From Dioscorea cayenensis subsp. rotundata (Eukaryota > Streptophyta > Magnoliopsida > Dioscoreales > Dioscoreaceae), in assembly GCF_009730915.1 (NCBI RefSeq), contig NC_052484.1:1116001-1180000 (forward strand): a stretch of 64,000 nt of DNA, in the 5' to 3' direction. The translations under genes and the position numbers were made by a program. The notes beneath the pieces were generated by a model that saw only the letters and a list, made by a program, of their open reading frames with translations, had not been told where the DNA came from and made no database searches. Position 1 is the first letter of the stretch. Each line of letters begins with the position of its first letter. Shown in pieces: positions 38,601-64,000 of this stretch.

Positions 38601-38728
38601 ATGATTTTTATATATTTTTTTTAAAAAAGGGACAAAAAAATAAAAAATAAAAAAAATTCACTATTTATTAACACATCAACACGTTGAGTAGTAGTAGTTG
38701 TAGGTTATACATTCTCATCCTCTCGAAG

Positions 38729-40256
38729 ATGGTTGGCAGGAGGCTGGTGGAGCAAGGAGACGCCGGCGGGGTCCCGCCGGCGGGTGGTGACTGGAGGTCA
38801 CAGCTACACCCGGATGCTCGGCGACGGATCGTGAACAAGATGTAAGGATATGCTTTCTCCTTTTCCGTTTCCTTTTTTTAGATCTTTTTATTTTTTAGAT
38901 GGATGTTTGATCTTCATGATTTTTTTTTTTTGGGTAGGATTTCATGATTAGTGTTTGTTGAATTGTATTAAAAGTAGCTAAAAATTGAAATTTTGAGAAA
39001 TTGGGTGATTCCCTTTGTGTTGATTTTGTGGTGCTTTGTGTTTGGATGGAGGTTTTTGGATTCGGAAAAATAGCTAAAAATTGGAATTTTGAGAAATTGT
39101 GCTATTCCCTTTTTGATGATTTTCTGGTTAGTGTTTGTTAAATTGTATTAAGAGTAGCTAAAAATTGAAATTCTGATCAATTGTGTTTATGGTGCTGTGT
39201 ATGAAAGGATCGAGGTAGCTAGTAATGGAAATTTAATCTTTGTGGGATTGTGTCTATAGGATTCATTTGTTTGGATGATGTGATGCTGAGCCTTTTGGAG
39301 CGAGATTATGCTATATAAAAAAATATTCTACAAATGTATTTAATGGGTTCTAATGTTTGGATTCTTTAGCAATGAACATTGATCATGGTTCAATCTTTCA
39401 CTGATCTGATAAAAAAATGATATTTTTGCAGAGACCTCTAAACGCTGAAGATTTGTTTATGATTAATTTAGTGCCTTTTGAATTTGTAAGGCTGATTTAG
39501 GTCTTGTGTTTTTCCTTGTTATCATTATGTGACCTTGAAAGCCTGCTAATTTTTTGTTCTCTTTTCTATCATCTCAGTGAACTTGTGCATGAGTGGAAAG
39601 AATTAGGTCTTAATGTTGCGTTCAATATGCTCTGATGTTTTTGTTTCCTTCTTCTTTATCTTGATTAGTAGCAATTTGATATTTTGTCTTCCTTGGAAGT
39701 TATTTGTTTGCCAGACTGAATTCAAATTTAAAGAAATTTAGCTCCTCTATTCTCATATTGCTTCTGAGCTTTTCTATTGATAATTTTTACATGTCATATT
39801 GATCCTTTATGGTATTTTAATTATTTATTTTCTCCCTTTTGGCTCTTCACAGAACGGAAACTTTAGCAAAGCACTTGCCAATCTCTGTACCCGAGGGATC
39901 TGCCGAACTTGAAAAAATTGCAGTGAGATTTGAGGATAGAATTTACATTGCTGCTACTAGTCAGGTCTGTTGACTTTGCTTTCAAAGTTTTGTTGTTATC
40001 TGTCTGCAGTTTAACCATTGCCATCAAAATGTGCAATCAATATTATTTATTGCAAAAAGATAAAAATTCCTCATTTGCAACTCTTTGTAGTAGTGTGAAA
40101 ACTTGGAACCAAAAGTTTGTACAAGATAAATCTGAACTTTTTTTTATTTAACAGTCTGATTATTTGCGGAAAATCTCTTTAAAAATGATTTCAATGGAGA
40201 CGAAGACCTCTGCGTCAATTAGTCCACCATCACTAAATCCAGCGGGTGGGAATTGA
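38729..40256 (+). CDS. KIX-only MED15-like protein, array copy 1 (intact short frame)
   Basis: Exons 38729-38841, 39853-39964 and 40155-40256 join in phase to a 108-residue protein. It has the start of the plant MED15 family: a Gly/Pro-rich leader with GDWRSQL, RRRIVNK, then the KIX helices (LAKHLPISVPEG, LEKIAVRFEDRIY, SDYLRKISLKMI). The stop falls soon after the KIX domain, in a codon where copy 3 reads on. The full-length MED15 (over 1,000 residues, Gln-rich) is absent; no later exons follow. The KIX domain of MED15 contacts activation domains of transcription factors, so this small protein could compete for them; that is inference. Methionine of exon 2 is changed to Thr. It might equally be an unexpressed relic. 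Confidence 0.6.
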
Positions 40257-42120
40257 AGTGAAATATAGACCCAGGTATGGACTAGTATAATGTCAAGTAC
40301 ACTTTGGGTATTTATTTGTTTTATCATTCAACATTATTGTGAATTATTTCTATAGTTTGAAACTCAATAATTGTCTAGTTGAATAATTTCTGTTCTTTTT
40401 GTGCATAATTGTTTGTACTTATTGTTCAATGCTCTGTTCAATAATTCTGGTGTTTTCCATTGTTCTACTCTGTGAATTTTTTATTTGAAGTCTGCTTCCA
40501 TCTACTATTTTCTGTGATAACACTTCTTTCTTCTATTACTTTCATCTGCTTTACTCCATTCCTTGCTGTCTCATCTCGCCTGTCAATATCTTCCTCTGAT
40601 ATCATATCACAATTCTCCAAGTTTCAAATGTTTTTTAAGGTGTAATAGAAAGCCTTTGTCTTTTAATTGACTATGTTATGTCGATTTCAGTTTATTTTTA
40701 TTGCATTTGTTGTTCTCAAGAGTCTCCTTCTTGTCTTACAGTTATATTATTATGAAGGATTCACACTTCTCTTTGTGCAGACCTTTCCATCATCCTCTGA
40801 TCATCCCCTTACTTCGTACTCACAATTATCTTCAACATTGATATCCGTTTGATGCCAATTTAGTGTTTTAGCTGATGGAATACACTGCTGATTGGCTTGA
40901 GAATAGACTGAATAGTCAATATTATTGTTTTTATGTTTTCATTAGAAATGAACTGTTTTCCTTTTTCTTAATATTGTTTAGTTAAGGGAATTTTGCATAT
41001 TTTGATAGTATTGTTGGCCAAAGGTTTTTTGTTAAACAATCTTGACAGAGTGACTTTTTAAAATAAACCTATGATGAGGGAATGATCAATTATGTGGAAA
41101 ATCAGCTTTAGACACACAGACTATGGTTGCAAATGAACCAAGTTGCTCGTGAGCTACTTGGAGCTCGGTTTTTAAAAAAAGCATGTTCATTAAGTAAATG
41201 AGCCTAGCTCGAGCCTAACTTTCAAGCTTGAATAGTTAATCGATCGGGCTCAAGCCTCAAACTGCACAGCTTATTAAAGCTAGTGAACAGCTTGTTATTG
41301 TAGTATTAATTACCGTAGCAATTTAAATGTTTTTTAATTCACTAATGTAGCTATATTACTGTATACAGTTGTTATAATACTGTAGTTAAGTGAGCTGAGC
41401 TTGAGCCTGACAAATGAAGTTTGAAGTAGGCTTAGCGGGTAAATTTTTTAGCATGTCAGTAAACTTTGGCTCGTTTTCATTTTGATTACTGAACTTTAAT
41501 TTGCATCAATTTGATCACTCAACATTAATTTGATTGCACTGGGTAATAAATCAAGGGATTTTTGCCCCCAAATGAATGATGTGGTTCTTTTTTGATGACA
41601 TGGGCACCTCTAATATACTTAATAGTGTGTCATGGGAAGGATTGACTTGAATTTTCAGACAGCCATGTTATCAATTTGAGTTTGAAATCCTTGATTTATT
41701 GCTAGTTGAAATCAGATTAAAGTTGAGTGACTAAATTGATATAAATTGAAGTTTGATGATTAAAGTGAAAATGAGTCAAAGTTTAGTGACCTGCTAAAAA
41801 ACTTATCCTAGGCTTAGCTCGAGGTTGAGCTAGGTTCAAATCTCGGCTTAGTTTGATTGCAGCCCGTTTGCGCGCACACACACACACACCATATTTTACC
41901 CATTTTTGACAATTTCTTCTATGGCAGATGGAGTCTGGGAAGGAGGTAAGACGCCCGGTCTGCAGCTCAAGGACCTATATATCAAAACTGTATGCTTGCC
42001 TTGGAGTTGCATACAGAGTAAACTCTATTCTATCAGTTATACCATCAGATTGTTAAGTTCAAACATATTCCATCTGGAAAACTTCAACTATGATCAGAAG
42101 ACTTGTAAGATAAAATAAAT
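40257..42120 (+). repeat. Array tail, copy 1
   Basis: This 3' flank of the KIX unit is shared with about 44500-46340 and 55890-57910, and lacks coding blocks. It has a shared closing motif (about 41995-42110) around CATATTCCATCTGGAAAAC. Copy 1 differs by the MITE at 41437-41809 and a CA repeat at about 41876-41888. Confidence 0.75.
41437..41809. mobile_element. Mutator-type MITE with long terminal inverted repeats
   Basis: The element is 373 bases long, flanked by a perfect 9-base duplication AGGCTTAGC (41428-41436 and 41810-41818). The terminal inverted repeats are about 80 bases long and imperfect: left end GGGTAAATTTTTTAGCATG, right end (reverse complement) AGGATAAGTTTTTTAGCAGG. The 9-base duplication and long repeats fit the Mutator superfamily. 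Sister array copies 2 and 4 have the uninterrupted site. Confidence 0.9.
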
Positions 42121-42159
42121 ATATTATGGATTGTCTGCTTGTAATATTTCTATTTACCA

Positions 42160-42263
42160 TATATATATATATATATATATATATAGGGGCAACTTTTCTA
42201 GGGATGTGTGTAGCCATATATATATATTATATACGGGCAAGTTTCTTAGGGATGTGAGTAGCC

Positions 42264-42298
<35 letters not shown>

Positions 42299-42330
42299 AG
42301 GGCTAGTTTCCTAAGATGTGAGTAGGTTTT
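42160..42330. repeat. TA/CA microsatellites with a threefold minisatellite
   Basis: Three units built on GGGCAAGTTTCTTAGGGATG then TGAGTAGCC alternate with TA runs, at about 42186, 42234 and 42299. The TA runs at about 42160-42184 and 42263-42292 are among the longest in the window. Confidence 0.65.
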
Positions 42331-43349
42331 AAATCGCACATCTCCGAGGGCCATGGGCAGAGACGGAACCAGGAAATAATCTAACAAAATAATTATTTTA
42401 AATGAAGAACAATGTGCTAATATAACCAAAATTTGAATACACATATTAAAAAAATATAAAATATAATTTAAAATTTTGTTATTACCGATAGAAAATATAT
42501 GGGATTTTCAATAATTCTACTTATAAGAATACATCTCAAGTTTGTATTTTTTTTTAAAATATCGTCAAATTGATCCTCCTCACTACAAACAACTAAACTA
42601 TTGTTTATAAAAAAAAACTTTGTTGTTTCACTCTAGCATATATGGTACATTATATAACATATATGTATATATGTTAGGCCTCATTATCAATTCAAATTTT
42701 TTTTAAATTACTAAAATTTGTATATTAGATTTATTTTATTAAAATTTTGAAATAATAGTAATTTTTAAATATAAAAATAAAATGTGAAAAAAATGCAAAA
42801 TTTGTATATCATCTTTGATGATTAAAAATAAAAGAGGCCAACATACAATCAGAGCCGTTTAAAATTAGGGTGATTAACACACAACCAATCAAGTAGAATC
42901 AAGACCTCATCTCTCCTCTTCGGGCTAATCCACTATTTAGATGAAGAGAATGATAAATTTGAAGAGGAAATTGATGATGTTGGATGATGATGGATTTGAT
43001 GATTTTGATGATAGTCACTAAAATCTAGATTTTATTATACAAGTTAGGATTTGGACTATATACATGCATTATATCATATTATTGCATTTTGTATTATACA
43101 TTTGAAGATTATTTTTCATGTTTTTATGTACGTTTCTTTCTAATGTCTGATCATCTTCTATGATATTAATCTTTAGAACATTTTAAAACTTTAATACAAA
43201 TTAATCTTTAGTACAAATATTTCTAATTTTTCAATTTTCTTTAGTGGAAACTAGTGCGTCTAGTGTTAATCGGGCGCGCGCCTGTGCCTTGCGCCTAGGC
43301 CCAGGACCCCTTTGTGCCTAGATGCGCCTTGCGCCTGTGACAACCTTGG
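42331..43349. other. Intergenic AT-rich spacer ending in a GC-rich junction
   Basis: No gene is recognised. The segment at about 42940-43010 (AGATGAAGAGAATGATAAA) looks like the acidic end of a transposase or similar frame but is too short to name. The GC-rich patch at about 43265-43345, with repeated GCGCCTTGCGCCT, lies exactly where array copy 2 begins without its first exon. Confidence 0.4.
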
Positions 43350-44085
43350 TTTGAATGATGTGGTGATGCTGATTTAATTTGGGATTATCTTTGTGAGATT
43401 GTGTTTGTAGGGTTCCTTGATTTGGTTTAGTGGACATGAGAAGTAGCTAAAAATGAAATTTTTTTTTTTTTTTTTGTTTGATAATTTTTGGCATTGTATT
43501 CAATGCGTTCTAATATTTGGATTCTGTAGTGGTGAACATTGGTAAAAGGTTCAATGATTCACTGATTTGATAAAAGATGATATTTTTTTGCAGATATCTC
43601 TAAACCTTGAAGATTTATTTATGATTGATTTAGTGCCTTTCCCATTTGTAAGGTTTATTTAAGTCTTGTGTTTTTCCTTGTTATTGTTAAGTTACCCTGA
43701 AAGCCTGTTACTTTGTCCTCTTTTCTATCATCTGAGGCAACTTGTACATAAGTGGAAAGAATTAGGTCTATTTGTGTGATGTTGTATGCTCTGATATTTT
43801 CCTTTGCCTTTTCTTTAGCTTGATTAATAGTATGATCTTTATTGCCTGTTAAGTGGTGGCGGGACACATTTAATAACTTTGATATTGAGATTGGCATAGC
43901 AGGTGATTACAAGGCTATTTGTTGTTATTTCGTTGTCCTTCAGAAGTTATTTGTTGCCATATCAAAGTCAACTTTTGAAAATTTATATCCTGTTGGTCTC
44001 ATATTACCTCTAAGCTTATCTCATATTGATCCTGCATGGCATTGTAATTATTTACTTTTCTCCACTAATTTGTTTCCCTATGCAG

Positions 44086-44496
44086 AACGGAAACTTTGGA
44101 GAGGCATTTGCTGGTCAGATTGATTGAACTTAAGAAAATTGCTGTGAGATTTGAGGAAAAAATTTACACCAGTGCAACGAGTCAGGTCTGTGGGCTTCTC
44201 TTTCAAAGTTTTGTGGTTATCTTCCTGCAGTTTAATCATTGGTATCAAACTTTGCAATCAATTATTGCAAATAGGGAAAAAAAGCCCACCTTTGCGATTC
44301 AATTGCATAAATACTGTGAAACACTTTGAACCAAAACATTGTACAGATAAATTCTTAACTTTCTTTTTTTTATCAGGCTGATTATCTGCGGAAAATCTCT
44401 TTAAACATGCTTCCATTGGAGGCAAAGACCCAGAATGCCGCATCAATTAATGAGCCATCAGTAAATCCAGCAGGTGGGATTCGAAGTAAAATATAG
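44086..44496 (+). pseudogene. KIX exons of MED15-like array copy 2, first exon missing
   Basis: Exon 2 (44086-44185) and exon 3 (44377-44496) are present with good splice sites and still read LERHLLV, LKKIAVRFEEKIYTSATSQ and ADYLRKISLNML. Exon 2 is 12 bases shorter than in the other copies. Exon 1 is absent: homology with copies 3 and 4 begins at about 43350, inside intron 1. Without a start or leader it is most likely a pseudogene. Confidence 0.75.
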
Positions 44497-45518
44497 GCCC
44501 AGGTATGGACAAGTATAATGTCAAGTACATTTTCGGGTAATTGTTTGCTTTATCATTCAGCGTAATTGTGATTTTTTTCTTTAGTTTTAAAGTCAATGAT
44601 TGTCTAGTTGAATTAGTTCTTTTGCGCATATTTGTTAGTTCTTATTGTTCAATGCTCTGATCAATAATTCTGGTGTTTTCCATTGTTCTACTCTGAATTT
44701 TTTATTTGAAGTCTGCTTCCATCTACTATTTTCTGTCGCTAGTGAATATTATCCTCTAATATCATGTCTCAGTTCTCCATATTTCAAATGTTTTTGAAGG
44801 TGTAATAAAAGGCATTTGTCTTTTAATTGACTATGTTATGTCGATTTCAGTTTATTTTTATTGTATTTGTCGTTCTCAAGAGTCTCCATCTTGTGTTGCA
44901 GTTATATTATTCTGAAGGATCTACATTTGTCTTTGTGCAAACCTTTCATCATGGGATACACCATCATCCTCTGATCATCCCCTTACTTCGTACTCGCAAT
45001 TATCTTCAACATTGATATCCATTTGATGCCAATTTAGTGGTTTAGCTGATGGAATACACTGCTGATTGGCTTGAGAATAGTCAATATTATTTTCCCTTTT
45101 CTTAATATTGTTTAGTTAAGGAAATTTTGCATGTTTTGGTAGTATTGTTGGCCAAAGGTTTTTTTGTTAAACAATCTTGATAGAGTGGCTTTTCAAAATA
45201 AACCTATGGTGGTGGATGATCATTTATGTGGAAAATCAGCGTTACACACACACACACTATGGCTGCAAATGAACCAAGTCGATCGCTCTCGAGGTACTCA
45301 GAGCTCAGTTTGAAAAAAAAAACATGCTTATTAAGCAAATGAGCCAAGCTTGAGCCTGACTAGCCTGATTAGTTAATCAATCGAGCTTGAGCCTCAAACT
45401 TCTCGGTTTATTAAGGCTAGTGAACAGCTTTCGTAGCAATTTAAATGTTTTTAATTCACTATTGTAGCTATGTTTCTGTATATCATAGTTATAATACTGT
45501 AGTTAGGTGAGCTGAGCC

Positions 45519-45961
45519 TAGGGGTGTAAATGATACACCTCTACTCGTAAGCTACTCGGGCTCGACTCGGTGAAAACTCGAACTCGGCTCGGTCACAGTC
45601 GAGCCGAGCTCGAGTAGCTCGAGTAGTCGAGCGAGCCGAGTTCGAGTATTATGATACTTGGCTCGAGTGCTCGCGAGCCTAATCGAGTATGTATGTATAT
45701 ATATAATATTAGATTTATTTGATAAAAATCAAGGGGAAAAACTTTCGAGCTCGAGCATAATGTTTATGGTTATTTTCAGCTTTTTTGAGCTTAATCGAGC
45801 GAGCTCGAGTAGCTCGATTTATGTACCGAGTCGAGCTCGAGCTCGAGCTATAAAATAAATACTCGATCGAGCTCGAGCCGAGTATCGAGTACCGAATTTT
45901 CAGTCGAGCTCGAGCTCGAGCTCGCTACTGCTCGGCTCGAACTCGATCGATTACACCCCTA
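45519..45961. mobile_element. hAT-type MITE rich in GAGCTCGAG motifs
   Basis: The element is 443 bases long with 11-base terminal inverted repeats TAGGGGTGTAA / TTACACCCCTA. It is flanked by an 8-base duplication (GCTGAGCC at 45511-45518, GCTGAGCT at 45962-45969; 7 of 8 match). Copies 1 and 4 of the array have the empty site GCTGAGCTTGAGCC. Internally it is full of CTCGAG and GAGCTC palindromes and could form strong secondary structure. Confidence 0.88.
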
Positions 45962-47596: not shown

Positions 47597-47687
47597 TTAA
47601 GGTTGGTGTTTTTTGAGATGTCGATCCCATCTTTGTGTGCTCAACATGGTGCTTTCAATGAGTCGGTTAGTGTGAGGTTCGGTTGGG

Positions 47688-47911: not shown

Positions 47912-47924
47912 AGCTCGGTTCAGT

Positions 47925-49029: not shown

Positions 49030-50508
49030 ATGGGTGGTCATGTAATCCTCTTCCCTTTCATGGCACAAGGCCATATCACCCCTTTCATCTCCCTCGCCGA
49101 GCTCCTCCACCGCCGGTGGCCGGAGCTAACCATCACCATCATCAACACCCCACGCAACATCCAATCCATCCAATCCTCCTTCCCTAATTCAATCCCCACC
49201 ATCCGTTTCCGTTCCCTCCCTTTCTCCCCTTCCGAACACGGCCTCCCTCCGAACACCGAGTCCACCGCCGGCCTTTCCTTCCCTCAGTTCCTCAACCTTT
49301 TCATTGCCTCTGAGTCTCTCAGATCACAATTCACTCAGCTCCTCCACCAAATCATCACGGAAGACGGCGGCCGTCTTCCTTCCTGCATCATTTCCGACAA
49401 CTTCTTAACTTGGACAGTCGACATCGCCGAGAAACTCAACATCTTCCACTCCACCCTCATCACCTCCAGCGCCTACGGCACCGCCATCTCATTCACCTTA
49501 TGGCTTCACATGCCCAAACTTCCAGCCATAGAAACACACTCCTTATCCTTACCAGACTTCCCAGAAATTAACATTCACTGGTCACAACTCCCCCGGCAGC
49601 TCTTCGTCCCCGACGACAACTTTGTTAGCAAGTATTCAAGCTTTCTCCAACGACAAACCTTGCACTGCTTCAAATCCAATGCTATACTCCTCAACACTGT
49701 CAAAGAGTTTGAAACCGCCGGCTTGCGCATGCTAGAGAAGCTCATCATCGGCGTTCCTCTCTTCCCTATCGGTCCTTTGCTCCGCCAACCATCGCCACCA
49801 TCATCATCATCATTATCTTTATCTTTATCTTCTTCTTCTTGTGTTGAGTGGTTAGACAAACACTCACCGGAGACGGTATTGTACATTTCGTTCGGTTCGC
49901 AGAACTCAATTAATTCTTCTCAGATGATGGAGTTGGCTGCTGGATTGGAAGCAAGTGAAAAAGCATTCATTTGGGTTATTAGACCTCCATTTGGTGTCGA
50001 GTTCACCGGAGAATTCAAACTGGATCAGTGGTTGCCGGAAGGGTTTGAAGAAAGAATGAGAGAAAAGAAGCAAGGTTTGTTAGTGCATGCATGGGCACCA
50101 CAAGTGGAAATACTTGCTCATGAATCAACATCTGCTTTCTTGAGCCATTGTGGATGGAACTCAGTGTTGGAGAGCCTCAGCCATGGAGTGCCAATCATTG
50201 GGTGGCCATTGGGAGCAGAGCAGTTCTATAACTCAATGTTTTTGGAGGAGGTTGGTGTTTGTGTGGAGTTGGGAAGAGGGAACAGGGAGAAGATGAGTTG
50301 TGTTAAGGTTGAGAAGGAGAGAGTGAAGAAGGTGGTGGAGATGGTGATGGGTGGAGGTGAGAAGGGAGTGGAGATGAAGAAGAAGGCCATGGAGATTAGT
50401 GACATGATTAGAGGAGCATTAATGGAGGTTGACAATGGTAATGGTCTTGGTTCATCTCTCCATGGACTTGATGAGTTCTGTAATCTTGTTTTCTCTAAGT
50501 TGGACTAA
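49030..50508 (+). CDS. UDP-glycosyltransferase, UGT92-like (GT1), intronless
   Basis: The protein has 492 residues, the usual GT1 length, in one exon. The N-terminal acceptor domain has the catalytic His in MAQGHITPF (His15) and its likely Asp partner in CIISDNF (Asp123). The C-terminal sugar-donor domain has the complete 44-residue PSPG box (residues 355-398) from WAPQVEIL through HCGWNSVLES to the final GAEQ; the last Gln favours UDP-glucose. A Ser/Leu-rich low-complexity linker at about residues 252-272 comes from a CAT/TCT repeat. Such enzymes glycosylate small acceptors in the cytosol; the acceptor is unknown. The start sits directly on the conserved GGHVILFPF. A truncated copy lies at 62138-62887. 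Confidence 0.93.
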   Translation: MGGHVILFPFMAQGHITPFISLAELLHRRWPELTITIINTPRNIQSIQSSFPNSIPTIRFRSLPFSPSEHGLPPNTESTAGLSFPQFLNLFIASESLRSQFTQLLHQIITEDGGRLPSCIISDNFLTWTVDIAEKLNIFHSTLITSSAYGTAISFTLWLHMPKLPAIETHSLSLPDFPEINIHWSQLPRQLFVPDDNFVSKYSSFLQRQTLHCFKSNAILLNTVKEFETAGLRMLEKLIIGVPLFPIGPLLRQPSPPSSSSLSLSLSSSSCVEWLDKHSPETVLYISFGSQNSINSSQMMELAAGLEASEKAFIWVIRPPFGVEFTGEFKLDQWLPEGFEERMREKKQGLLVHAWAPQVEILAHESTSAFLSHCGWNSVLESLSHGVPIIGWPLGAEQFYNSMFLEEVGVCVELGRGNREKMSCVKVEKERVKKVVEMVMGGGEKGVEMKKKAMEISDMIRGALMEVDNGNGLGSSLHGLDEFCNLVFSKLD

Positions 50509-51365: not shown

Positions 51366-51755
51366 TAAAAAAGATGGATAAATTATTTCAATTAAAGAAA
51401 AAAAAAGAGAAAACAACACTTCACTGTACAGTAATAAAGAAACAACAATAGGGAGAAAAATGAGAACATACCACGAGAAGTAGAAATAAAAGCCAAAATA
51501 ACATCCAAAACAACACCACACAGAACAAGTAGCAGTGATGATAAAGAAAACTTTCTCAACCTTCCTGGAACACTAGCACCAACTAACTTGTGATTTGCTC
51601 TTGCATCCCCTCAGAAGGTAAAGCACCTCCTGACTCCTCCACACGAGGGCCTAAAAATTTCAAGGCTGTGCCGGATGGCTGAAGTGGTGTCCTCAAGCTT
51701 CACTCTAAATCCATCGTCCACTGAAAAAGAATCAGGATAAAAAACAGACGTCAAT
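51366..51755 (-). mobile_element. 5'-truncated L1-type LINE fragment
   Basis: On the minus strand the segment ends in the TTTATC-type tail and an A-rich run, like the other LINE relics here. The duplicated flank downstream of the UGT pseudogene (about 63730-63800) passes straight from the TTTTGGTTTTTT side to the far side, so it lacks this insertion. No reading frame survives. Confidence 0.55.
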
Positions 51756-52132
51756 TTTTTTGAGATATTTTCACAATTAACAATGTTTGATAGTGAAAGT
51801 TAATTATTAGTTAAGGCTTGTCCATGTGAAAGTTTCAAACAGTCCACTAATTTTTTAACATATTCTCATTTGAAGTCCCTTTTTTTTGATAAATTTATTT
51901 TTTAAGACCAAGTTTTAGTTAATCACATTGTCACAGGGACTAGTAACGAAAACTATCCAAACATCAGGATCAAAAGGTTAGAGAAATTCCCAAGGACTTA
52001 TAAGTAATTCTGATCTTTTCTAAGAAAACAGTTCTCTGTTTTCGTTTTCTGGACTCATTTTCTCGTTTTCATTCTCTTTTGTTATTTTCGTTTTCCAATC
52101 TCCATAGCCTGAATCGGGGCTTCCTCGCAGAG

Positions 52133-53822
52133 ATGGACGGTGGGAGCTGGAGGGCGGCGGGGCCGGGAGACGCCGGTGGGGACCCGCCTGCGGGTGACTG
52201 GAGGACCCAGCTCCAGTCGAAAGCTCGGCAACGGATCGTGAACAAGGTGTAAGCATATTATTTCTCGTTTTCCCGGGATTGTTTTTCTTAGGGCCTGTTT
52301 TTTTTTTCCTGGATGTTTGATCTTCATGATGTTCTTGTTTGAATTTCGTGATCAGGGTTTGTGGAATTGTACGAAAAGTAGCTAAAAATCGAAATTTTGA
52401 CAAGTTTTGCGATTTCCTTTCGTTGATTTTTTGGTGCTTTGCATTTCATTGATTGATAGTTTTGGATTCGTAAAAATGGCCAGAAATGAACAATTGATCT
52501 TTGTGAGATTGGGTTTAGTGGATTTCGTGGTTTGAATGATGCGGTGATGCTGATTTAATTTGGGATTCATTTTTTTTTTTTGTTATTGAGAAATTGTATG
52601 AAAGTAGCTAGAAATGGAATTATGATCTTTGTGAGATTGTGTTTGCAGGGTTTCTTGGTTTGGATTCAGTGGACACAAGAAGCAGCTAAAAATGAAAATT
52701 TGATTTTTTTTTTTGTTTGATAAATTTTGGCATTGTATTCAATTTGTTCTAATATTTGGATTCTTTAGTGGTGAACATTGGTAAAAGGTTCAATGATTCA
52801 CTGATTTGATAAAAGATGATATTTTTTTGCAGATATCTCTAAACCTTGAAGATTTATTTATGATTGATTTAGTGTCTTTTCTAGGTTGATTTAAGTCCTA
52901 TGTTTTTCCTTGTTATTGTCAAGTGACCCTGAGAATCTGCTAATTTTCCTCTTTTCTATCATCTGAGGGAACTTGTACATAAGCGGAAAGAATTATGTCT
53001 ATTTGTTTGATGTAGTATGCTCTGATATTTTCCTTTGCCTTTTCTTTACCTTGATTAATAATACAATCATTATTGCCTGTTAAGTGGTGGTGGTCACATT
53101 TAATAACTTTGATATTGAGATTGGCATAGGAGGTGATTACAAGGCTATTTGTCGTTATTTCGTTGTCCTTTAGAAGTTTTTTTTTTTTGCCAGATCAAAG
53201 TCAACTTTTAAAAATTTTTATCCTGTTGTTCTCATATTGCTTCTGACCTCATCTCATATTGATCCTGCATGGTATTGTAATTATTTACTTTTCTCCACTA
53301 ATTTTTTTCCCTACGCAGAATGGAAACTTTGGAGAGGCATTTGCCGATCCCCGCATCTGAGGGATTGAATGAACTTAAAAAAATTGCTGTGAGATTTGAG
53401 GAAAAAATTTACACTGCTGCAATGAGTCAGGTCTGTGGGCTTCACTTTCAAAGTTTTGTGGTTATCTTCCTGCAGTTTAATCATTGGTATCAAACTTTGC
53501 AATCAATATTATTTATTGCAAATAGGGGGAAAAGCCCACCTTTGCGATTCAATTGCATAAATACTGTGAGCACTTTGAACCAAAACTTTGTACAGATAAA
53601 TTCTTAACTTTCTTTTTTAATCAGATTGATTATCTGCGGAAAATCTCTTTAAAAATGCTTTCAATGGAGATAAAGACCCAGAATCCAGCAGCAATTAATC
53701 AGCCATCACTAAATTCAGCCGGTGGGAATCAAAGTAATGTAGACCCAGGTATGGTCATAACTGGTGTAGTGCTTTATAAAGGCAAGTACATTTTGAGTAT
53801 TTGTTTGTTTCATCATTCATAA
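52133..53822 (+). CDS. KIX-only MED15-like protein, array copy 3 (best preserved)
   Basis: Exons 52133-52248, 53319-53430 and 53625 onward. The start MDGGSWRAAG and the block GDWRTQL ... ARQRIVNK match the MED15 N-terminus. Exon 2 gives ETLERHLPI, LKKIAVRFEEKIYTAA and exon 3 DYLRKISLKMLSME. In the parent gene exon 3 would be spliced at 53748 (donor GTATGG); here no further exons follow because the next array unit begins at about 53850. If that donor is not used the frame runs to a stop at 53822, giving 141 residues. Phases are consistent in all three exons. A decoy role for the KIX surface is possible but unproven. Confidence 0.6.
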
Positions 53823-54306: not shown

Positions 54307-55887
54307 ATGGACGGTGGGAGCTGGAGGCCGGTGGGGCAGGGAGACGCTGGTGGGGACCCGCCTGCGGGTGACTGGAGGACCCAGCTCCTGCCGGAAGCTT
54401 ATCTTGAACAAGATGTAAGGATATGATTTCTCGTTTCCGATTGTTTTTCTTAGGGCCTTTTTTTGGATGGCTGTTTGATCTTCATGATGTTTTCGTTTGA
54501 ATTTTGTGATCAGGGTTTGTGGAATTGTACGAAAAGTAGCTAAAAATTGAAATTTTGACAAGTTTTTGCGATTTCCTTTCGTTGAGTTTTGGTGCTGTGC
54601 GTTCATTGATTGATAGGTTTGGATTTGTAAAAATAGCCAGAAATGAACAATTGATCTTTGTGAGATTGGGTTTGGTGGATTTCGTGGTTTCAGTGATATG
54701 GTGATGCTGATTTAATTTGGGATTCATTGATTTGTATGAAAGTAGCTAGAAATGGAATTTTGATCTTTGTGAGATTGTGTTTATAGGGTTCCTAGATTTG
54801 GATTCAGTGGACACGAAAAGTTGCTAAAAATGAAATTTTGTATTTTTTTTTGTTTGATAATTTTTTTCATTGTATTCAATGCGTTCTAATATTTGGATTC
54901 TTTAATGGTGGACATTGGTAAAAAGTTAAATGATTCACTGATTTGATAAAATATGATATTTTTTTGCAGATACCTCTAAACCCTGAAGATTTATTTATGA
55001 TTGATTTAGTGCCTTTTCCGTTTGTAAGGTTGATTTAAGTCTTGTGTTTTTCCTTGTTATTGTCAAGTGACCCTGAGAATCTGCTAATTTTCCTCTTTTC
55101 TATCATCTGAGGGAACTTGTACATAAGCGGAAAGAATTATGTCTATTTGTTTGATGTAGTATGCTCTGATATTTTCCTTTGCCTTTTCTTTAGCTTGATG
55201 AATAGTACGATTGTTATTGCCTGTTAAGTGGTGGTGGGTCACATTTAATAACTTTGATAGTGAGATTGGCATAGGAGGTGATTACAAGGCTATTTGTCGT
55301 TATTTCATTGTCCTTTAGAAGCTATATATTGCCAGATCAAAGTCAAATTTTAAAAATTTACATCCTGATGTTCTCATATTGCTTCCAACCTCGTCTCATA
55401 TTGACCCTGCATGGTGTTGTAATTATTTACTTTTCTCCAGTAATTTTTTTCTCTATGCAGAATGAAAACTTTGGAGAGGCATTTACCGATGCTCTCATCT
55501 GAGGGATTGATTGAACTTAAGAAAATTGCTGTGAGATTTGAGGAAAGAATTTACACTGCTGCAACGAGTCAGGTCTGTGGGCTTCGCTTTCAAAGTTTTG
55601 TCGTTATCTTCCTGCAGTTTAATCATTGGTGTCAAACTGTGCAGTCAATATTATTTATTGCGAATAGGGAAAAAAGCCCACCATTGCGTTTCAATTGCAT
55701 AAATACCGTGAGCACTTTGAACCAAAGCATTGTACAGATAAATTCTTAACTTTCTTTTTTTTATCAGACTGATTATCTGCGTAAAATCTCTTTAAAAATG
55801 CTTCCATGGGAGGCAAAGGCCCAGAATGCTGCATCAATTAGTCCACCATCACAAAATCCAGCAGGTGTGATTCAAAGTAAAATATAG
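54307..55887 (+). pseudogene. KIX exons of MED15-like array copy 4, frame broken in exon 1
   Basis: Exon 1 (54307-54414) starts MDGGSWRPVGQG but has lost eight bases in the region coding for RQRIVNK, so it can no longer join exon 2 in frame. Exon 2 (55461-55572) and exon 3 (55768-55887) still read LERHLPML, LKKIAVRFEERIYTAATSQ and TDYLRKISLKMLP and then stop. Copy 4 follows copy 3 with a start-to-start distance of 2,174 bases and shares its upstream region, so the pair is a simple tandem duplication. Confidence 0.75.
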
Positions 55888-55889
55888 AC

Positions 55890-57910
55890 CCAGGTATGGG
55901 CAAGTATAATGACAACTACTTTTTTGGGTATTTGTTTGTTTTATCATTCAGCGTTACTGTGAAATATTTCTTTAGTTTGAAAATCAATGATTGTATAATT
56001 GAATAAGTTCTGTTCTTTTGTGCATATTTGTTTGTACTTGTTGTCGAATGCTCTGATCCATAATTCTGATGTTTTCCATTGTTGTACTCTCTGAATTTTT
56101 TATTTGAAGTCTGCTTCCATCGACTATTTTCTGTGATAACACTTCCTTCTTCTATTACTTTCATCTGCTTTACTCCATTACTTGCCGTCTTGCCAGTGAA
56201 TATCTTCCTCTAATATCATATTATAGTTCCCCGAGTTTCAAATGTTTTTGAAGGTGTAATAAAAAGCATTTGTCTTTTGATTGGCTATGTTATGTCGATT
56301 TCAGTTTATTTTATTGCATTTGTTGTTCTCAAGAGTCTTCATCTTGTCTTAGTTTTATTATTCTGAAGGATCTACACTCCTCTGATCATCCCTCTTACTC
56401 CGTACTCACAATTATCGGCAACATTGATATCCATTTGATGCCAATTTGGTGGTTTAGCCAATGGAATACACTACTGATTTGCTTGAGAATAATCAATATT
56501 ATTGTTTTTATGTTTTCATTAGGAATGAACTGTTTTCCTTTTTCTTAATATTGTTTAGTTAAGGCAATTTTACATGTTTTGATAATTTGTTGGCCGAAAG
56601 TTTTTTGTTAAACAATCTTGATAGAGTGGCTTTTCAAAATAAACCTATGAGGGTGGATGATCATTTATGTAGAAAATCCGCGTTCCACACACACTGGCTG
56701 CAAATGAGCCAAGTAGCTCGCGAGCTACTCAGAGCTCAGTTTGAGAAGCATGTTCATTAAGCAAATGAGCCGACTTTCGAGCTTGAATAGTTAATCAATC
56801 AAACTCGAGCCTCAAACTATGTAGTCAGAACCGGGTTGAACTGGACCCGGGAGTATAAATGGTCCAGTACTATTTTAAAAATCAGGTAAGCCAAAAATTG
56901 GTGTGAACCAGGTGTTTCAACCGCGAACGGGATGAACCGGACCAGGTTCACATGGTTGAACCGGGCTCAATCTAGTTTTTAAAAATTTAAACGATGCATA
57001 TGGGTGAACCGGGCCCGGTTTGTATAAAACTTTAAAAGTTTAAAACCTAAGTAGTCAAAGCCTAAAATGATGCACATGAAAACTTTGGTAGTCAAAACCT
57101 AAAGTTTAATTTTTTTAAATTTTTTTCAATTGAAAGTTATTAAATTTTAATTTATTTAATTTATATGTAATGAGACTTTGATTTTAAAAATGAGATGTGA
57201 CTTTCTTTATTTGACATATTACATGTATTTGCCTATTTGGTTTAAAAAAAGAACTTATTCTTTAATCTACTATATTTTTATTTTTATTTTATAAATTTTG
57301 GTTCAATCTGGAGTTGAACCTCTCAACCCTTGAATCTTATCTTTGTCCGGTTTAATTGTCTGGTCCGGTTCTGACTACCTAGGTCTCAAACTGCTCGGCT
57401 TATTGAGGTTAGTGAACAGTCTGTCATTGTAGTATGGAGCACCGTAGCAATTTAAATGTTTTTAATTCACTAATGTAGCTTTGTTACTGTATGCAATAGT
57501 TATAATACTGTAGTTAGGTGACCTGAGCTTGAGCCTGACAAATGAAGTTTGAAGTAGGTTTAGCTCGAGCTCGGGCCAGGTTCAAATCTCAGCTCAGTTC
57601 GGTTGCAACTCGGTTGCAACCCGTTTACACGTGCGTGCGCGTGCGCGCGCACACCATATTTTACCCATTTCGGAGCCAGCACTGATTTTGACAATTTCTT
57701 CCATGGCAGATGCAGTCTATGAAGGAGTAAAGAGGCAGCTCTGCAGCTCAATGAAACTATATATCAAAACTGTATGCTTGCCTTGGAGTTGCATAGAGAG
57801 TGAAGTCTATTCTTTAACTTTTACTATCAAACTGTCAAGTTCAAACATATTCCATCTGGAAAACTTCAACTATGCTCAGAAGACATTTGAGATGAAGTAA
57901 ATATATTATG
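55890..57910 (+). repeat. Array tail, copy 4
   Basis: It corresponds to 40257-42120 and about 44500-46340, interrupted here by the element at 56819-57384. A purine-pyrimidine run of alternating CG/TG/CA (about 57629-57653) sits where copies 1 and 2 have CA repeats. No conserved protein is encoded; the open frame ending at 57900 is chance or at best a short 3' exon. Confidence 0.7.
56819..57384. mobile_element. MITE with GTAGTCAGAACCGG terminal repeats
   Basis: The 566-base element has 14-base terminal inverted repeats GTAGTCAGAACCGG, and a perfect 8-base flanking duplication CTCAAACT (56811-56818 and 57385-57392; a ninth base differs). The interior repeats GAACCGG and CCGGTT motifs. Copies 1 and 2 have the uninterrupted CCTCAAACT site. 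An 8-base duplication favours the hAT superfamily; a 9-base reading would favour Mutator. Confidence 0.85.
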
Positions 57911-58059
57911 GTATGCTTGTTTCTAATATTTCGATTTACCTACTATATATATATATTTGTGCATGGGCAAGTTTCCTGTGGACTTGTGTTTTCATTTTCT
58001 TTCTTATATTTTTGTTTTTGTTTTTTGTAATGTTTACTGACGTAAATAATGTTTTTTTC

Positions 58060-61000
58060 CATATATATATATATATGGGAAAAACATTATAAGAACAACA
58101 AACAAAACAACTTACAAAGACTACAAAATTCTACTAAAGAAACACAAAACAATGCAGGACATAAGAACAACAAACTACATAGTAAAACCAAGTTTCAAAA
58201 TATACTTCATAATCCATCTTGGAAGGTCTTTGCCTTGATGAAATAGATTATAAGAGCTTGCAGATTGACTCCATGGCAAGCTAGGCTATATGCAATGCCA
58301 ACCCATTTGTGAGGTATGACTTAAACTTAAGGGTTACCAGCTATCACTAGTAGATTCTGGAGCAAATTCATCCCTTGTTCAGCTCTCAAATCATGTTGAT
58401 ATATGTTGTAATTGAGAGCATCATGCAAATCCACACTGGGGATAAACAGATACTTAATGTTTTTTGGGGAAGAGGAGCGGGGCGAACCCACTGAGAGACC
58501 CGGGGGACGTGCACAGTCTCACTGGAACAAGTGGGGACGAGACCAGCTCACGTCGGGTCTTTGGAACCACTCGTACACAACCACTATTCATAACTCCCGG
58601 GAAATATCGCTCAGCCGAGAATCGAACTCTCACCACTCGGTGAGAGCTCTATCGACGACCCGTGTACCAATAGACCCGCAGGTCGTTGGCAACAGATACT
58701 TAATGTTGATCTAGTGTCTAATAGCAATTATCAGGGTTCTAACATCAACATCCATCTAAGATTGAGGTTGGGAGTTACCACAACCTTCTACCAAAATATT
58801 AGCATTAGAGTTTGTTAGGAAAAAACCAGCTCCTCTTTTACACAGTTCTTTTGTTTCAGGTAATCACTAATAGGAAAAGGACCTTCAAAATCAGAAAAGT
58901 TTGCAAGAAAGATTATCTTACCAATATGAGAATTAGAAGTGGAAGATAACTCCCTGATATGAACAACAACCTTCTTAACAATATTATTGCAATCAAAGTT
59001 ATCATTCTTGAAAATACAATTGTGCCGAGATTTCCAAATGAACCAAGCATTGGCAGCCAAAATGGATTTGATATGCATAGATCCCTCAGAATCAGGAAAC
59101 TAGAGCTAGTTACATGAAGTGAAGCCGCCATAGAAAATAACAGGAATGTTGAAATTGTTAGACGTATATGTTGTATTGTATATGTATGTATACATGTGCA
59201 TGTATGTATAGACGTATATATATATTTATCATATTCTATATGTAGACCCAAAGGGTCACTCATGCAAAATGTTCAGCCATAATTGACTTGTTCCATTTCT
59301 CTCTTCTATCAGAAATAACTACCAATTAAATCCCAAGTGTTTTGGGCTTCAATACAACTATTCAGAAGATGCTCAGCAGTCTCATGCTCTGTCCCACAAA
59401 TAGCACAAAGCCTATTGGAACCCATTTTAAGATGAAACAGATACTCATTAGTTTTAAGCTTGCCATGAAAAAGGAGCCAGATAAAATGTTCACCCAAGGT
59501 GTAACCTTAATTAAGGCTCCAGATAGTTTCCCAGCCATATATACCAATGATCAGAATGCTCTGAAGATTGATTAAATTGAGAATAGACTTTAGTAGAAAT
59601 GTGATTGCCTTTGGAATTAGGAAACTAGACCCAAGAATTCTCACCCTCATAATTATTATGACAAAGACTAAGAGCTTGAGTGTTCAGATGCTCGCCAAAG
59701 ATATTATGCAGCTCATGAAAATTCCAGTGAACATCAACAGTTAAATTAGAAAAGTTGACAGATAAAATAGCAATCTCCATATTCAACTAAGTTGGTTTGA
59801 AAGCAAGGGGGGATTTCATAATACCATGGGTCAGACTAAAAGGAAGTAGTGTTCAAATTTATAGAGTTTAGCCACATAAAAGGTTTTAAAGAGTGAGTAG
59901 ATTTACACAAACCCCGAAAGAACCAAGAGCAGTTCGAAGGATTGGAATCTGTTCATAAATTAAGCTTCCCATATTTAAAATACAAAATATCGGTCCACAA
60001 AACACTTTGAGTATTAAGACAGTTGAAAACATTCTTGGCCATTAAAGACAATTTAGAAAACTTAAGATTTCTGACCGAGAGGCCCCCTTCAGTATGATCA
60101 AGTGTAATATCTTACCAACCAACAAAGTGAATGCCCTTGCTATCATCATCCTTTGACCTAGAAGAGTTTTCTAGCTAATTTGGCATTTCTATCAAGAATA
60201 GAGTCTTGAACAGGGTAAACTGACAGTTAGTACATGAAAGTGGAGAGGACAGAAGAATTTATAAGAACAGTTTTACCTGTAGTAGAGATTCTAGAATGAT
60301 TCTAGCAAGAATTTTTATTCAGTATAGAGGAGACTTGAGAGATAGCTAATTTCTTCGGAGTGATGAGAATGCCAAGGTAAGTAAAAGGGAAAGCACCAAC
60401 TTTGAAATAAAGGATGCCACTAATATTGCTACTGAGTCTCTTATTGAAATGACCAGGAAAGAAGACCTCAGACTTAGCATTATTAGCACATTTTCCCATT
60501 AACTTCTCATAAATAGAGAAACAAAGGTTTATATGTTATGAGCAACTTTCCTGGAGGCATTAGAAATCAAAATTAAGTCAAATTCTGGGGCATACATACC
60601 AGCATTAAAACCTAGAATCATATTATTTCTCATGGAAAAGTTAAGCATAACAGTCAAATTCTGGGGCACTAGGATAAAAAGATAAGAGGATTAAAGGATC
60701 ACCTTTGCTTAAGACTTCTAGAAGAAGAGATCCACTTCCTGGGTTTTTTGTTGATGATAAAAGAAAACGAGGCAGAACTAATTCAAGCATGAATCCAAGA
60801 AATCCAAGTGCCAGGGAAATTCAATCTAATAATGGTGGCAAGAATTGTATTCCAACTCATAGTGTCATAGGTTTTCTATGTCAAACTTCACTAACATCTT
60901 AGGGGGTGATTAATATCTTGATTCATGGAGTGAACCACTTCCTAAAGAGTAATGATGTTATCAAAGGGGGTGCAACCCGAAACAAAACCACACATTGCTC

Positions 61001-62060
61001 TCACCCAATGAGCTGAGGCAAAATATGCTTAAGATGGTTAGTCAAGATTTTAGAAATAATCTTATAGCAAACCATTACAAAGCGAATCAGATGAAAATCA
61101 GAAACAAACTTAGGGTTGGGTCTTTTCGGGATTAAATTAATGAAAGTTCTACCCTAAGTTTTAGGCGTAACAGAGTTTGCAAAGAAATAATTCACAGCAG
61201 AATACAAATGATCCCCTAGATCCTGCCCAAAAATCCTGTAAAATTCAGCATTAAGACTATCAGGACCAGGGCTCTTATAAGAGGTAAGGGACATCAAGGC
61301 TTGATGCACATCATTCTTGGAGACTTCACCCATAAGCACATTGCAATCATTCTCAGTAACAATAAGTAAGTTATTACAAAGAGCATAAAAAATATCAGAG
61401 AAACTCAAAACATGAACATCAGTCCAAGGATCGGAGAAAAAACTTGTAAAACCCTGCCCAATACCCTCTCTTTGAGTAAAAGTGTTACCATTAAAATCAG
61501 AAATGTGAGAGATAGCATTGTGGTGATTTCTAAAATGAATGGAATTGTGAAAGAAACTTGTATTATAATCTCCATTGTGAACCCAAAGCAATCCAGCCCT
61601 CTGAGCCCACTTGATAGAATTTTGCCTTTGAAGGGTAGCATACCTATTATACAAAGCCAATAAAGTATTATGAGAGTTATTACCTAGCTCACATAAGACA
61701 TCATTGGCCTCAGCATCTTGGATGGCCAGGTCCAGATTAGAAATATTAGTTACAATGAAGTTCAAACGCTTTGCCCTCCAATTAATTAGCTGCAACCTAG
61801 TTTGGGCAACTAGGTGAGAGAAATCATGTATGCGAGTGGAATGCGGAGTTGAATTCCAGATATTAAGAACAATTTCATGACAATTAAGATGCTCAAACCA
61901 ATAATTATTGAACCGAAAAATAAAATTTTTGAAAGAACTACGCGGAAAAACAGAGAGGAAAATGGGAGCATGATCAGAAAATATACGAGGAAGATGCTTG
62001 ACTTAGTAAGAATTAAAATTAGAGGATCATTTGGAGTTAACCAAGCAGCAATCCAACATT
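58060..62060 (-). mobile_element. Degraded, 5'-truncated L1-type LINE with nested SINE
   Basis: On the minus strand, in order: the end of an endonuclease domain (HLPRIFSDHAPI, near 61960-62000), a reverse transcriptase with YKSPGPDSLNAEFYR (near 61270) in an open stretch at 61154-61795, a zf-RVT-like region (CAICGTEHETAEHLL, near 59395), and an RNase H-like end (near 58250-58400). Many stops and frame changes interrupt it, so it is inactive. The 5' end is cut inside the endonuclease domain, the usual fate of L1 copies, and it lies next to the UGT pseudogene. A SINE at 58462-58690 splits the 3' part. Confidence 0.85.
58462..58690 (-). mobile_element. tRNA-derived SINE (family A) nested in the LINE
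   Basis: A perfect 17-base target duplication AACAGATACTTAATGTT flanks the element (58445-58461 and 58691-58707). On the minus strand it starts GCCAACGACCTGCGGGTC, carries GTCTATTGGTACACGGG as an A-box region and AGAGTTCGATTCTC as B-box (58617-58630 on +), and ends in CCCCAAAAAA. It matches 47688-47911. Confidence 0.9.
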
Positions 62061-62137
62061 GCCCACCTTCTGGCTAATCCAGCCTTGCCCACCTTCAGTC
62101 CATAACCTGATCAGAAGTCCACAGTATAGGAGAAGAA

Positions 62138-62887
62138 GCATGCTAGATAAGCTCATCATTGGCATTCCTCTCTTCCCTATTATGATAGTCCTTTGCTCCG
62201 CCAAACATCACCATCATCATCATCATCATTATCTTTATCTTTATCTTCTTGTATCGAGTGGTTAGACAAACACTCACCGGGGACGGTATTGTACACATAT
62301 CATTTGGTTCGCAGAACTCGATTAATGCTTCTCAGATGATAGAGTTGGCTGCCGGATTGGAAGCAAGTGGGAAGGCATTCATTTGGGTTATTAGACCTCC
62401 ATTTGGTGTTGACATCGCCGGGGAATTCAAACTGTATCAGTGGTTGCCGGAAGGGTTTGAAGAAAGAATGAGAGCAAAGAAGCAAGGTTTGTTAATGCAT
62501 GCATGGGCACCACAAGTGGAAATACTTGCTCATGAATCAACAACATCTGCTTTCTTGAGCCATTGTGGATGGAACTCAGTGTTGGAGAGCCTCAGTCATG
62601 GAGTACCAATCATTGGGTGGCCATTGGGAGCATATCAGTTCTATAACTCAATGTTTTTTTGACAAAAAGAACAGACAGCCCGAAAACTATGCTAAATTGT
62701 CAAAGATGCACAAGTCTCGGTAGAGCAAGTAGGGGCGGGGCCACGCACACATGTTGAGAAGGGATTGGAGATGAAGAAGAAGGTCATGGAGATGAAGAAG
62801 AAGGTCATGGAGATTAATGTCATGATTAGAGGAGCATTAATGGAGGTTGACAATGGTATTGGTCTTGTTTTCTCTAAGTTGGACTAA
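62138..62887 (+). pseudogene. UGT92-like pseudogene, C-terminal half only
   Basis: Homology with the UGT gene begins at the codons for MLxKLIIG (about residue 237 of the intact protein); the first half is missing. Small insertions near 62180 shift the frame, then the frame is good again through SFGSQNSIN, WVIRPPFGV and a PSPG box with an extra Thr (HESTTSAFLSHCGWNS) and GAYQ in place of GAEQ. At about 62657 the match stops: roughly 120 bases are replaced by sequence containing a SINE family-A piece (near 62705-62750). It resumes at 62755 and ends with the same stop region. The 3' flank also matches that of the intact gene. Confidence 0.92.
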
Positions 62888-63134
62888 GTGCATGTTTTCA
62901 TTATTGTAATTAATTTGTGTTTTTGAGCTTGTTTTGTATTTTTTCTGTGAATAATGATGATGATAATGATGAGAAATCTAGAACATGAAATGATTAATAT
63001 AATAAAATTCATGGCCACTTGTGAGAACTTTAAGCATGTGAGGTGTTGATCCTAGACACAGACAAGCGAAAAAGATGCATTGACGTGGTGAAATATAGAC
63101 AGAAGAAACTTTGTGCACTGTTAGCAATCATTTG

Positions 63135-63347
63135 ATTTTGTTTTTGTTTTTTTGTTTTTTTTTTTTTTTAGAAAAAGCGTCAAAGTTGCCGGAACCAGGG
63201 ATGAACACGTGGATGAGCCACGCTCACCATCGAACCTTGCCCTCATCTTGAGGGAGATGGAGATCGAACTCGGAGAGCCACGCTCGACACTCGAGGCGAA
63301 TACCTTAAGCAAGGGATCCGATGCCAATAGACCAAATGGGCATTGGC
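63135..63347 (-). mobile_element. tRNA-derived SINE (family B) with 15-base target duplication
   Basis: A perfect 15-base duplication GTTAGCAATCATTTG flanks it (63120-63134 and 63348-63362). On the minus strand it starts GCCAATGCCCATTTGGTC, has an A-box region TGGTCTATTGGCATCGG and a B-box GAGTTCGATCTCC (63259-63271 on +), and ends in an A-rich tail. The matching site beside the intact UGT gene (about 50730-50743) is empty. Confidence 0.9.
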
Positions 63348-63759
63348 GTTAGCAATCATTTGTGTGTGTATGTGTTCATATAATTATTATTTTAAATATT
63401 TTTTTAAATATATTAATCAACTAAATTGTATTAAAAGTTAGATATAAATACAAAGACAAATTGAATATGGATAATAAAAATTGAGAAACAATCCAGTGAT
63501 AAGCATTAATTAAACATTTGTTGATAAAAAATAATAATTTTATAAAAAAACAAATAAAACTTCTGAATGAGCAATGATAATAGGATTGGATCATTATTGA
63601 ATTCAATCTGTTAAATAAAATGTTAAAATGTGTTAAATAACTTCGCTTACATTGAAACATATTTTATAGTTTTTTTGAGTTTTTTTTTAATCTCGAGTTG
63701 TAAAGGATCGTGCGGATAAATAGGGCAACATGATGTAATAAATTATTTAAATATTTTAT

Positions 63760-64000
63760 TTTTCATAATTTTGGTTTTTTTGGGAAAATTTTGGCAATCA
63801 AGAATGTTTGAAGGTGCAAGTCAATTATTAGTTAAGGCTTGTCTATGTGAAAGTTTCAAACAGTCCTCTAATTTTGTGACATATTCATTTGAAGTCCCCT
63901 TTTTTTGATAAATTTATCTTTTAAGAACAAATTTTAGTTCATGACATTGTTACAGGACTAGTAACGAAAACTATCTTAAAAATCAGAATCAAAAGGTAAG
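63760..64000 (+). repeat. Upstream part of a fifth KIX array unit
   Basis: The segment matches 51780-51990 and 53870-54115, the regions just before exon 1 of copies 3 and 4, including AAGTCAATTATTAGTT and GAAAGTTTCAAACAGTCC. A further KIX exon 1 is therefore expected about 170 bases beyond the right edge. Confidence 0.8.

Follow-up and report, generated by a model that had tools for sequence, protein, structure and literature searches.

A tandem array of MED15-type KIX fragments, probably mostly relic and amplified with a UDP-glycosyltransferase gene, and one candidate KIX-only gene

KIX fragments and glycosyltransferase sequences at the locus

Four MED15-type KIX fragments lie at 38.7–56 kb of the window (the whole 64,000-nucleotide stretch of DNA analysed), interspersed with and followed by UDP-glycosyltransferase (UGT) sequences (Table 1). 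The plant MED15 KIX profile (Pfam KIX_2, PF16987) was significantly matched in 4/4 copies, at E-values from 3e-16 to 7e-32, such that the resemblance is not a matter of chance; for copies 2 and 4 the search input comprised exons 2–3 only. The domain is complete from exons 1–3 only in copies 1 and 3 (profile positions 2–79 and 2–81 of 83), the exons given for copies 2 and 4 spanning positions 22–81 and 21–81. Copies 1 and 3 were searched against solved chains, and in both cases the closest was the KIX of Arabidopsis MED15a (At1g15780; 9zjn_C, that is, PDB 9zjn chain C), with 49/76 and 51/78 identical residues respectively; the corresponding figures are 48/75 for copy 4 (by alignment columns) and 32/55 for copy 2. 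Searching the whole window with the KIX by tblastn gave nothing below E 0.01 beyond the four copies, Rfam gave no match at gathering score within the window, and a scan of viral contigs for KIX relatives gave two pattern matches, neither of them confirmed.

Table 1. Positions and properties of the features of the array (window coordinates).
Feature	Position	Strand	Properties
Copy 1	38729..40256	+	exons 38729–38841, 39853–39964, 40155–40256 (including TGA); KIX_2 4.1e-30; AtMED15a KIX 3e-28
Downstream spacer of copy 1	40275..42211	+	common in pieces to copies 2 and 4; no Q-rich frame found
Copy 2, 5′-truncated unit	43384..45517	+	exons 2–3 at 44086–44185 and 44377–44502; KIX_2 3.4e-16
UGT1, UDP-glycosyltransferase	49030..50508	+	open, single exon, 492 aa; PF00201 1.4e-20; frame checked
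5′ flank of copy 3	51755..52132	+	recurs before copy 4 (from 53895) and at the window end
Copy 3	52133..53822	+	exons 52133–52248, 53319–53430, 53625–53748; KIX_2 6.8e-32; AtMED15a KIX 1.2e-30
Copy 4	54307..55893	+	exons 54307–54414, 55461–55572, 55768–55893; exons 2–3 KIX_2 8.5e-20
Downstream spacer of copy 4	55894..57989	+	homologous in pieces to spacers of copies 1 and 2
UGT2, pseudogene	62138..63134	+	homology to UGT1
Fifth unit, 5′ flank only	63775..64000	+	matches 51755–51981 at 86.9%

Exon borders match among all four copies and are of the GT–AG type. An earlier note on this DNA had described four three-exon copies and the start of a fifth; the four copies and their borders stand, although no exon 1 can be recognised in copy 2 (none by blastn at 1e-3) and the fifth unit consists of 5′ flank alone, reaching the window end ahead of exon 1 with none of its exons inside. 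The frames of copies 1 and 3 are open, at the lengths then claimed. That of copy 1 encodes 108 aa, KIX-only, its splice donor lying at 40275, beyond a second in-frame stop, while that of copy 3 reaches 141 aa provided that the last donor goes unused, the C-terminal ~24 residues then being intron sequence read past a conserved splice donor. The decay reported for copies 2 and 4 is likewise evident: copy 2, whose homology to copies 3 and 4 begins at 43384–43387, within intron 1, has lost its start and has a 12-nt in-frame deletion in exon 2 and a TAG at the end of exon 3, and copy 4 has an 8-nt deletion in exon 1 that shifts the frame, again with a TAG at the end of exon 3. Exon 1 of copy 3 followed by exons 2–3 of copy 4 would be open over 112-odd aa, as a matter of arithmetic only. 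Two fusions were rejected: exons 1–3 of copy 3 with exons 2–3 of copy 4 (stop after one codon), and copy 1 with copy 2 (copy 1's own stop comes before any join).

The UGT sequences are co-duplicated with the KIX fragments. Over 527 aligned positions UGT2 is 90.7% identical to UGT1, and over another 396 it is 77.8% identical; it lacks the 5′ part, has in-frame stops and switches frame. The block order KIX, spacer, UGT, KIX 5′ flank is found twice, in copy 2 with UGT1 and in copy 4 with UGT2, and groupings among the copies switch around exon 3, so that no single tree fits. The array belongs to a tandem KIX-plus-UGT duplication that unequal recombination has apparently rearranged. Copy 1 is the most diverged of the copies. 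Its spacer differs from those of copies 2 and 4 by 0.117–0.130 substitutions/site (aligned part, to 41500).

Substitution patterns and constraint

Substitution patterns shift between the recent copies and the deeper divide. Private changes in copies 2–4 numbered 39 nonsynonymous (N) to 7 synonymous (S), consistent with the neutral share of 0.77 N (p = 0.29), compared with 29 N:23 S separating copy 1 from the ancestor inferred for copies 2–4 (p = 0.0007; the two ratios differ at Fisher p = 0.002). The recent-copy test is built on 46 changes and is weaker without copy 3 (12 N:3 S vs 13 N:11 S, p = 0.17). Values of ω among copies 2–4 have wide intervals (copy 3 vs copy 4, 1.28, interval 0.60–4.06; copy 2 with copy 4, 0.81 over the KIX alone), and those of copy 1 against copies 2, 3 and 4 are 0.45, 0.49 and 0.34, with 95% bootstrap intervals below 1 in 3/3 pairs. 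The dN/dS comparison that the earlier note had proposed for copies 1 and 3 divides them: copy 3, with 16 nonsynonymous and 2 synonymous private changes, gives no sign of constraint, and copy 1 gives one for some time since its split from copies 2–4.

Exons 1–2 of copies 2–4 (exon 2 only in pairs with copy 2) diverge like introns in 3/3 pairs (p = 0.31–0.49). In copy 1, exons 1–2 by themselves show no significant slowing relative to introns (p = 1.0, 0.13 and 0.20), but exons 1–3 do in 2/3 pairs (p = 0.008, 0.015 and 0.16). The open frame of copy 3 is unsurprising under neutral decay (probability 0.14–0.31 at d 0.045). That of copy 1 is improbable under clock-like neutral drift, the clock being assumed in the depth of d 0.165: the probability is then 0.001–0.018, rising to 0.01–0.08 at d 0.10, and to 0.12–0.16 at d 0.165 when stops alone are counted.

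The suspicion that the whole array might be relic is well founded for copies 2–4, none of which gives a sign of constraint. Lesions and a neutral substitution pattern, the two marks of a relic, are both present in copies 2 and 4; copy 3 has the neutral pattern and a KIX without lesion, and copy 1 does not show the combination. These sequence comparisons lend the decoy idea no support in the case of copy 3. For copy 1, they point to constraint at some time since its split from copies 2–4, neither dated nor tied to a KIX-only protein; it may be old, dating perhaps from a full-length parent.

Origin of the array and the candidate gene

We consider it likely that the array is a duplicated gene fragment of the ordinary kind, amplified in tandem with a UGT, in which most copies are relics and one is a candidate KIX-only gene. 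The 5′ end of a MED15-type gene (exons 1–3, containing the KIX domain) would have come to adjoin a UGT gene, after which the KIX-plus-UGT segment would have multiplied in tandem and undergone rearrangement through unequal recombination; we infer this sequence of steps, and likewise that the UGT duplications carried the KIX parts along. Copies 2, 3 and 4 would since have evolved without detectable coding constraint, as relics or nearly so, whereas purifying selection presumably acted on the KIX codons of copy 1 during some or all of the period after its split from the other copies. It would follow either that a KIX-only gene is still in use or that constraint has since ended, and only copy 1, the oldest copy, might still encode a small protein. 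As it stands, the locus suggests that a fragment carried with a duplicating UGT can stay open by chance for a while, a warning that open frames in young tandem copies are not to be taken for genes.

It appears unlikely that copy 1 functions as a KIX-only gene, its putative 108-aa product a decoy that would bind the activation domains usually accepted by MED15 and so compete with Mediator recruitment. Its frame is open with GT–AG splice sites, the deep divide from copies 2–4 was constrained, and plant MED15 KIX binds activation domains such as those of DELLA, according to the part of PMC11714745 available. Copy 1 differs from the consensus of copies 2–4 at 20 amino acids: 7 of these changes are assignable to the branch of copy 1, 5 to the opposite branch and 8 to neither. 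BLOSUM62 scores are positive for 6/7 of the changes assigned to copy 1. However, the nearly complete KIX scores 104 bits against 131 bits for the Arabidopsis MED15a KIX control, the constraint is inseparable from an earlier time within a full-length parent, and significant slowing relative to introns disappears when exons 1–2 are taken alone. Moreover, the 5′ flank of copy 1 is unrelated to those of copies 3–4, which leaves its promoter unproven. It seems quite doubtful that copy 1 would be a retained MED15-derived microprotein gene titrating Mediator-recruiting activation domains while its sisters decayed, with UGT-linked duplication continuing to yield KIX-only copies. Were copy 1 to make a protein, a plant would provide a natural example of a KIX competitor derived from Mediator, in which the origin of single-domain regulators by partial duplication could be studied.

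The predominance of nonsynonymous changes in copies 2–4 might instead be read as diversification under positive selection, exons 1–3 being more diverged than introns in 2/3 pairs (copies 3–4, p = 0.019; copies 2–3, p = 0.014). This is very improbable: the nonsynonymous share is no higher than expected under neutrality, the excess is absent from exons 1–2 and not significant between copies 2 and 4 (p = 0.20), both of which are disrupted, and groupings change around exon 3. We ascribe the excess, tentatively, to recombination. It is scarcely credible that the exons belong to longer genes, with later MED15 exons in long introns or beyond the window, even though the donor GTATGG is retained at the end of exon 3 in 4/4 copies and the copy 3 frame is open as far as that donor. 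In-frame stops precede the donor in copies 1, 2 and 4, already contradicting the idea for these three; in copy 3, a join from exon 3 to exon 2 of copy 4 meets the early stop noted above. Downstream of the KIX exons lies spacer, UGT or the next KIX 5′ flank. When all six frames of the window were scanned for stretches of 40 residues free of stops and containing ≥8 Q, 6 matches were obtained, none of them in 38.66–64 kb, which agrees, on Q content, with the earlier claim that later MED15 exons are missing there. A full-length MED15 has a Q-rich region and a C-terminal part after the KIX; here there are stops after the KIX and, by the scan used, no Q-rich frame.

Comparison with other MED15-related genes

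In the available text of PMC10565003, soybean MED15 genes have 11–12 exons (a figure for the group) and encode 1,063–1,347 aa, compared with the three exons of the copies here. Extra MED15-related KIX genes occur in plants, some of them shorter than MED15a (PMC11059607; PMC10565003, in the parts available), although the rose protein is far longer than the 108 aa of copy 1. Those parts of the two accounts describe no tandem array adjoining a UGT, and no tandem KIX-only MED15 fragments were described among the literature matches listed, as excerpted, from a limited library.

Plant glycosyltransferase clusters contain tandemly duplicated gene fragments and pseudogenes, and here likewise a passenger fragment is repeated with a UGT in open and broken copies. 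What sets this array apart is its passenger, a KIX fragment derived from Mediator. Small KIX genes that adjoin Arabidopsis MED15a may be relatives.

KIX fragments and their reading frames

Judged by its gene content, the window is probably plant nuclear DNA. Exon borders located and spliced in the window placed the first three exons of a MED15-type gene, whole or partial, in four stretches (copies 1–4, listed below). Pfam KIX_2 matched 4/4 copies (4.1e-30, 3.4e-16, 6.8e-32 and 8.5e-20 for copies 1–4 in order; the search input for copies 2 and 4 was exons 2–3), and a search of solved chains, run with copies 1 and 3, gave the Arabidopsis MED15a KIX as best hit for both (9zjn_C; 3e-28 and 1.2e-30, respectively). 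Identity to that chain was 49/76 aligned residues in copy 1 and 51/78 in copy 3, with KIX_2 scores of 104 and 110 bits, compared with 131 for the Arabidopsis domain.

KIX fragments and associated UDP-glycosyltransferase (UGT) sequences, in window coordinates
Feature	Position	Strand	Description
Copy 1	38729-40256	+	spliced product 108 aa
Copy 2	44086-44502	+	exons 2 and 3 only
Copy 3	52133-53822	+	product 141 aa
Copy 4	54307-55893	+	frame shifted by deletion within exon 1
Fifth unit	63775-64000	+	5′ flank alone (self-comparison)
UGT1	49030-50508	+	open, 492 aa
UGT2	62138-63134	+	without 5′ part, contains stops

An earlier note on this DNA, made from the sequence alone, had described four three-exon copies and the start of a fifth. 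Four KIX fragments are indeed present, but copy 2 is without exon 1, which was sought there and gave no match; homology of copy 2 to copies 3 and 4 starts at 43384-43387, within intron 1 (self-comparison), and its exon 2 has a 12-base in-frame deletion. The frameshift in copy 4 results from an 8-base deletion, and the supposed fifth copy amounts to no more than a 5′ flank, belonging to the next unit. Splicing reproduced the product lengths that the note gave for copies 1 and 3, and it was right that the frames stop just after the KIX domain: a GT donor is retained at the same position 3′ of KIX in 4/4 copies, with in-frame stops just upstream of it in copies 1, 2 and 4. Copy 3 lacks those stops and its frame crosses the donor, reading ~24 residues of intron, so its extra length is read-through. 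Six Q-rich frames, for which Q-richness rather than a plant MED15 tail query was the criterion, were found window-wide, none within the array. When joined, exon 1 of copy 3 (52133-52248) and exons 2–3 of copy 4 (55461-55893), all on the + strand, would encode a KIX protein in an open frame of about 115 aa, so an exon-skipping read-through transcript could use copy 4.

Plant genomes are reported to hold several MED15-related KIX genes, among them AtKIX2, termed ‘MED15-like’, along with proteins near to MED15 that are uncharacterised (PMC10565003); MED15a, b and c are listed for Arabidopsis (PMC9181133), and a MED15a-like protein of 529 aa with KIX for rose (PMC11059607). A survey in soybean detected no Mediator subunits duplicated in tandem (PMC6770253), and titles and abstract openings of the papers listed by literature searches contained no description of a comparable KIX array.

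A tandem block shared with UGT

Self-comparison revealed a repeated block, in the order KIX, spacer, UGT, 5′ flank of the following KIX, that pairs copy 2 and UGT1 with copy 4 and UGT2 (90.7% identity between the UGTs across 527 aligned positions). The 5′ flank of copy 4 directly abuts copy 3 (spacing ~2.14 kb); copy 1 has its spacer in common with copies 2 and 4 and an unrelated 5′ flank. By distance, the outlier upstream of exon 3 was copy 1; downstream, copies 1, 2 and 4 were similar and the outlier was copy 3. We infer tandem amplification with unequal recombination, which would leave such a block and such switched groupings.

Adjoining the truncated UGT2 is a 282-aa frame (61154-62002, − strand) that by look resembles a piece of a LINE-type retroelement and had no Pfam match at 0.001; an event near it may have taken away the 5′ part of UGT2. 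The spacer of copy 1 contains an imperfect self-inverted repeat (41437-41808; 67.7% over 378 aligned positions), and a smaller one lies at 57987-58151; both are possibly fold-back transposons.

Constraint and possible function

Among copies 2–4, exons 1–2 and introns were equally diverged in 3/3 pairs (p 0.31–0.49; exon 2 alone stands for exons 1–2 in pairs with copy 2). With exon 3 added, exons diverged more than introns in 2/3 pairs (p 0.014 and 0.019; third pair 0.20), an excess that we put down to groupings changing at exon 3. Changes private to these copies (39 nonsynonymous, 7 synonymous) did not differ from the neutral nonsynonymous share of 0.77 (p 0.29). Pairwise dN/dS over three exons was 1.07–1.75, with wide intervals (0.43–7.86 overall), and 0.81–1.56 for KIX alone. 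At 0.045 substitutions/site, the depth of copy 3, 95 codons would stay open under neutral decay, at rates taken from introns as for all such estimates here, with probability 0.14–0.31; the open frame of copy 3 is therefore no evidence.

Of the changes separating copy 1 from the inferred ancestor of copies 2–4, 29 were nonsynonymous and 23 synonymous (p 0.0007 relative to the neutral 0.77), a ratio distinct from that of the private changes (Fisher's test, p 0.002). This contrast held with KIX codons only, exons 1–2 only or copy 2 omitted (p 0.007–0.035); with copy 3 omitted, and few changes, p was 0.17. The earlier note had put forward copies 1 and 3 as possible Mediator decoys with dN/dS as a check: values for copy 1 were low (0.45, 0.49 and 0.34 against copies 2, 3 and 4; bootstrap intervals below 1 in 3/3), but copy 3 belongs to the pairs of copies 2–4 with three-exon values above 1 and wide intervals. 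Exons 1–3 of copy 1 were slower than introns in 2/3 pairs (p 0.008, 0.015, 0.16); exons 1–2 were not (p 1.0, 0.13, 0.20), so raw rates back constraint less than the codon pattern does. The probability of an open frame was 0.001–0.018 at 0.165, which is the depth of copy 1 under a molecular clock, and 0.01–0.08 at 0.10; at 0.165, counting stops without frameshifts, it was 0.12–0.16. Given these values, copy 1 was probably under constraint during much of its own separate history. That constraint may be old, and may stem from a KIX-only protein or from a full-length parent.

As a set, the KIX copies probably do nothing now, and would be a passenger fragment amplified together with UGT. If any copy acts, copy 1 is the likeliest; its product, if active, would presumably compete against MED15 for binding to activation domains. 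The KIX of plant MED15 has been reported to bind the activation domain of DELLA (PMC11714745).

Other features of the window

Positions 1326-2325 consist of 1000 consecutive N and represent either masked sequence or a gap in the assembly. Open frames at 12197-13077 (+) match MutS domain V (Pfam), and probably form the last part of an MSH1-type plant gene; a frame at 10939-11271 had no match in Pfam. Frames at 16946-19697 (+) carry DUF3741, VARLMGL and DUF4378 domains and are presumably of TRM/LONGIFOLIA type. An exostosin-type GT47 glycosyltransferase (28609-30355, +) occupies two overlapping frames, the changeover at ~29.57-29.62 kb being either a frameshift or a short intron. A leucine-rich-repeat receptor kinase (32933-36114, +) lies in three frames, its kinase portion being divided, probably by a short intron, between 35669 and 35689.
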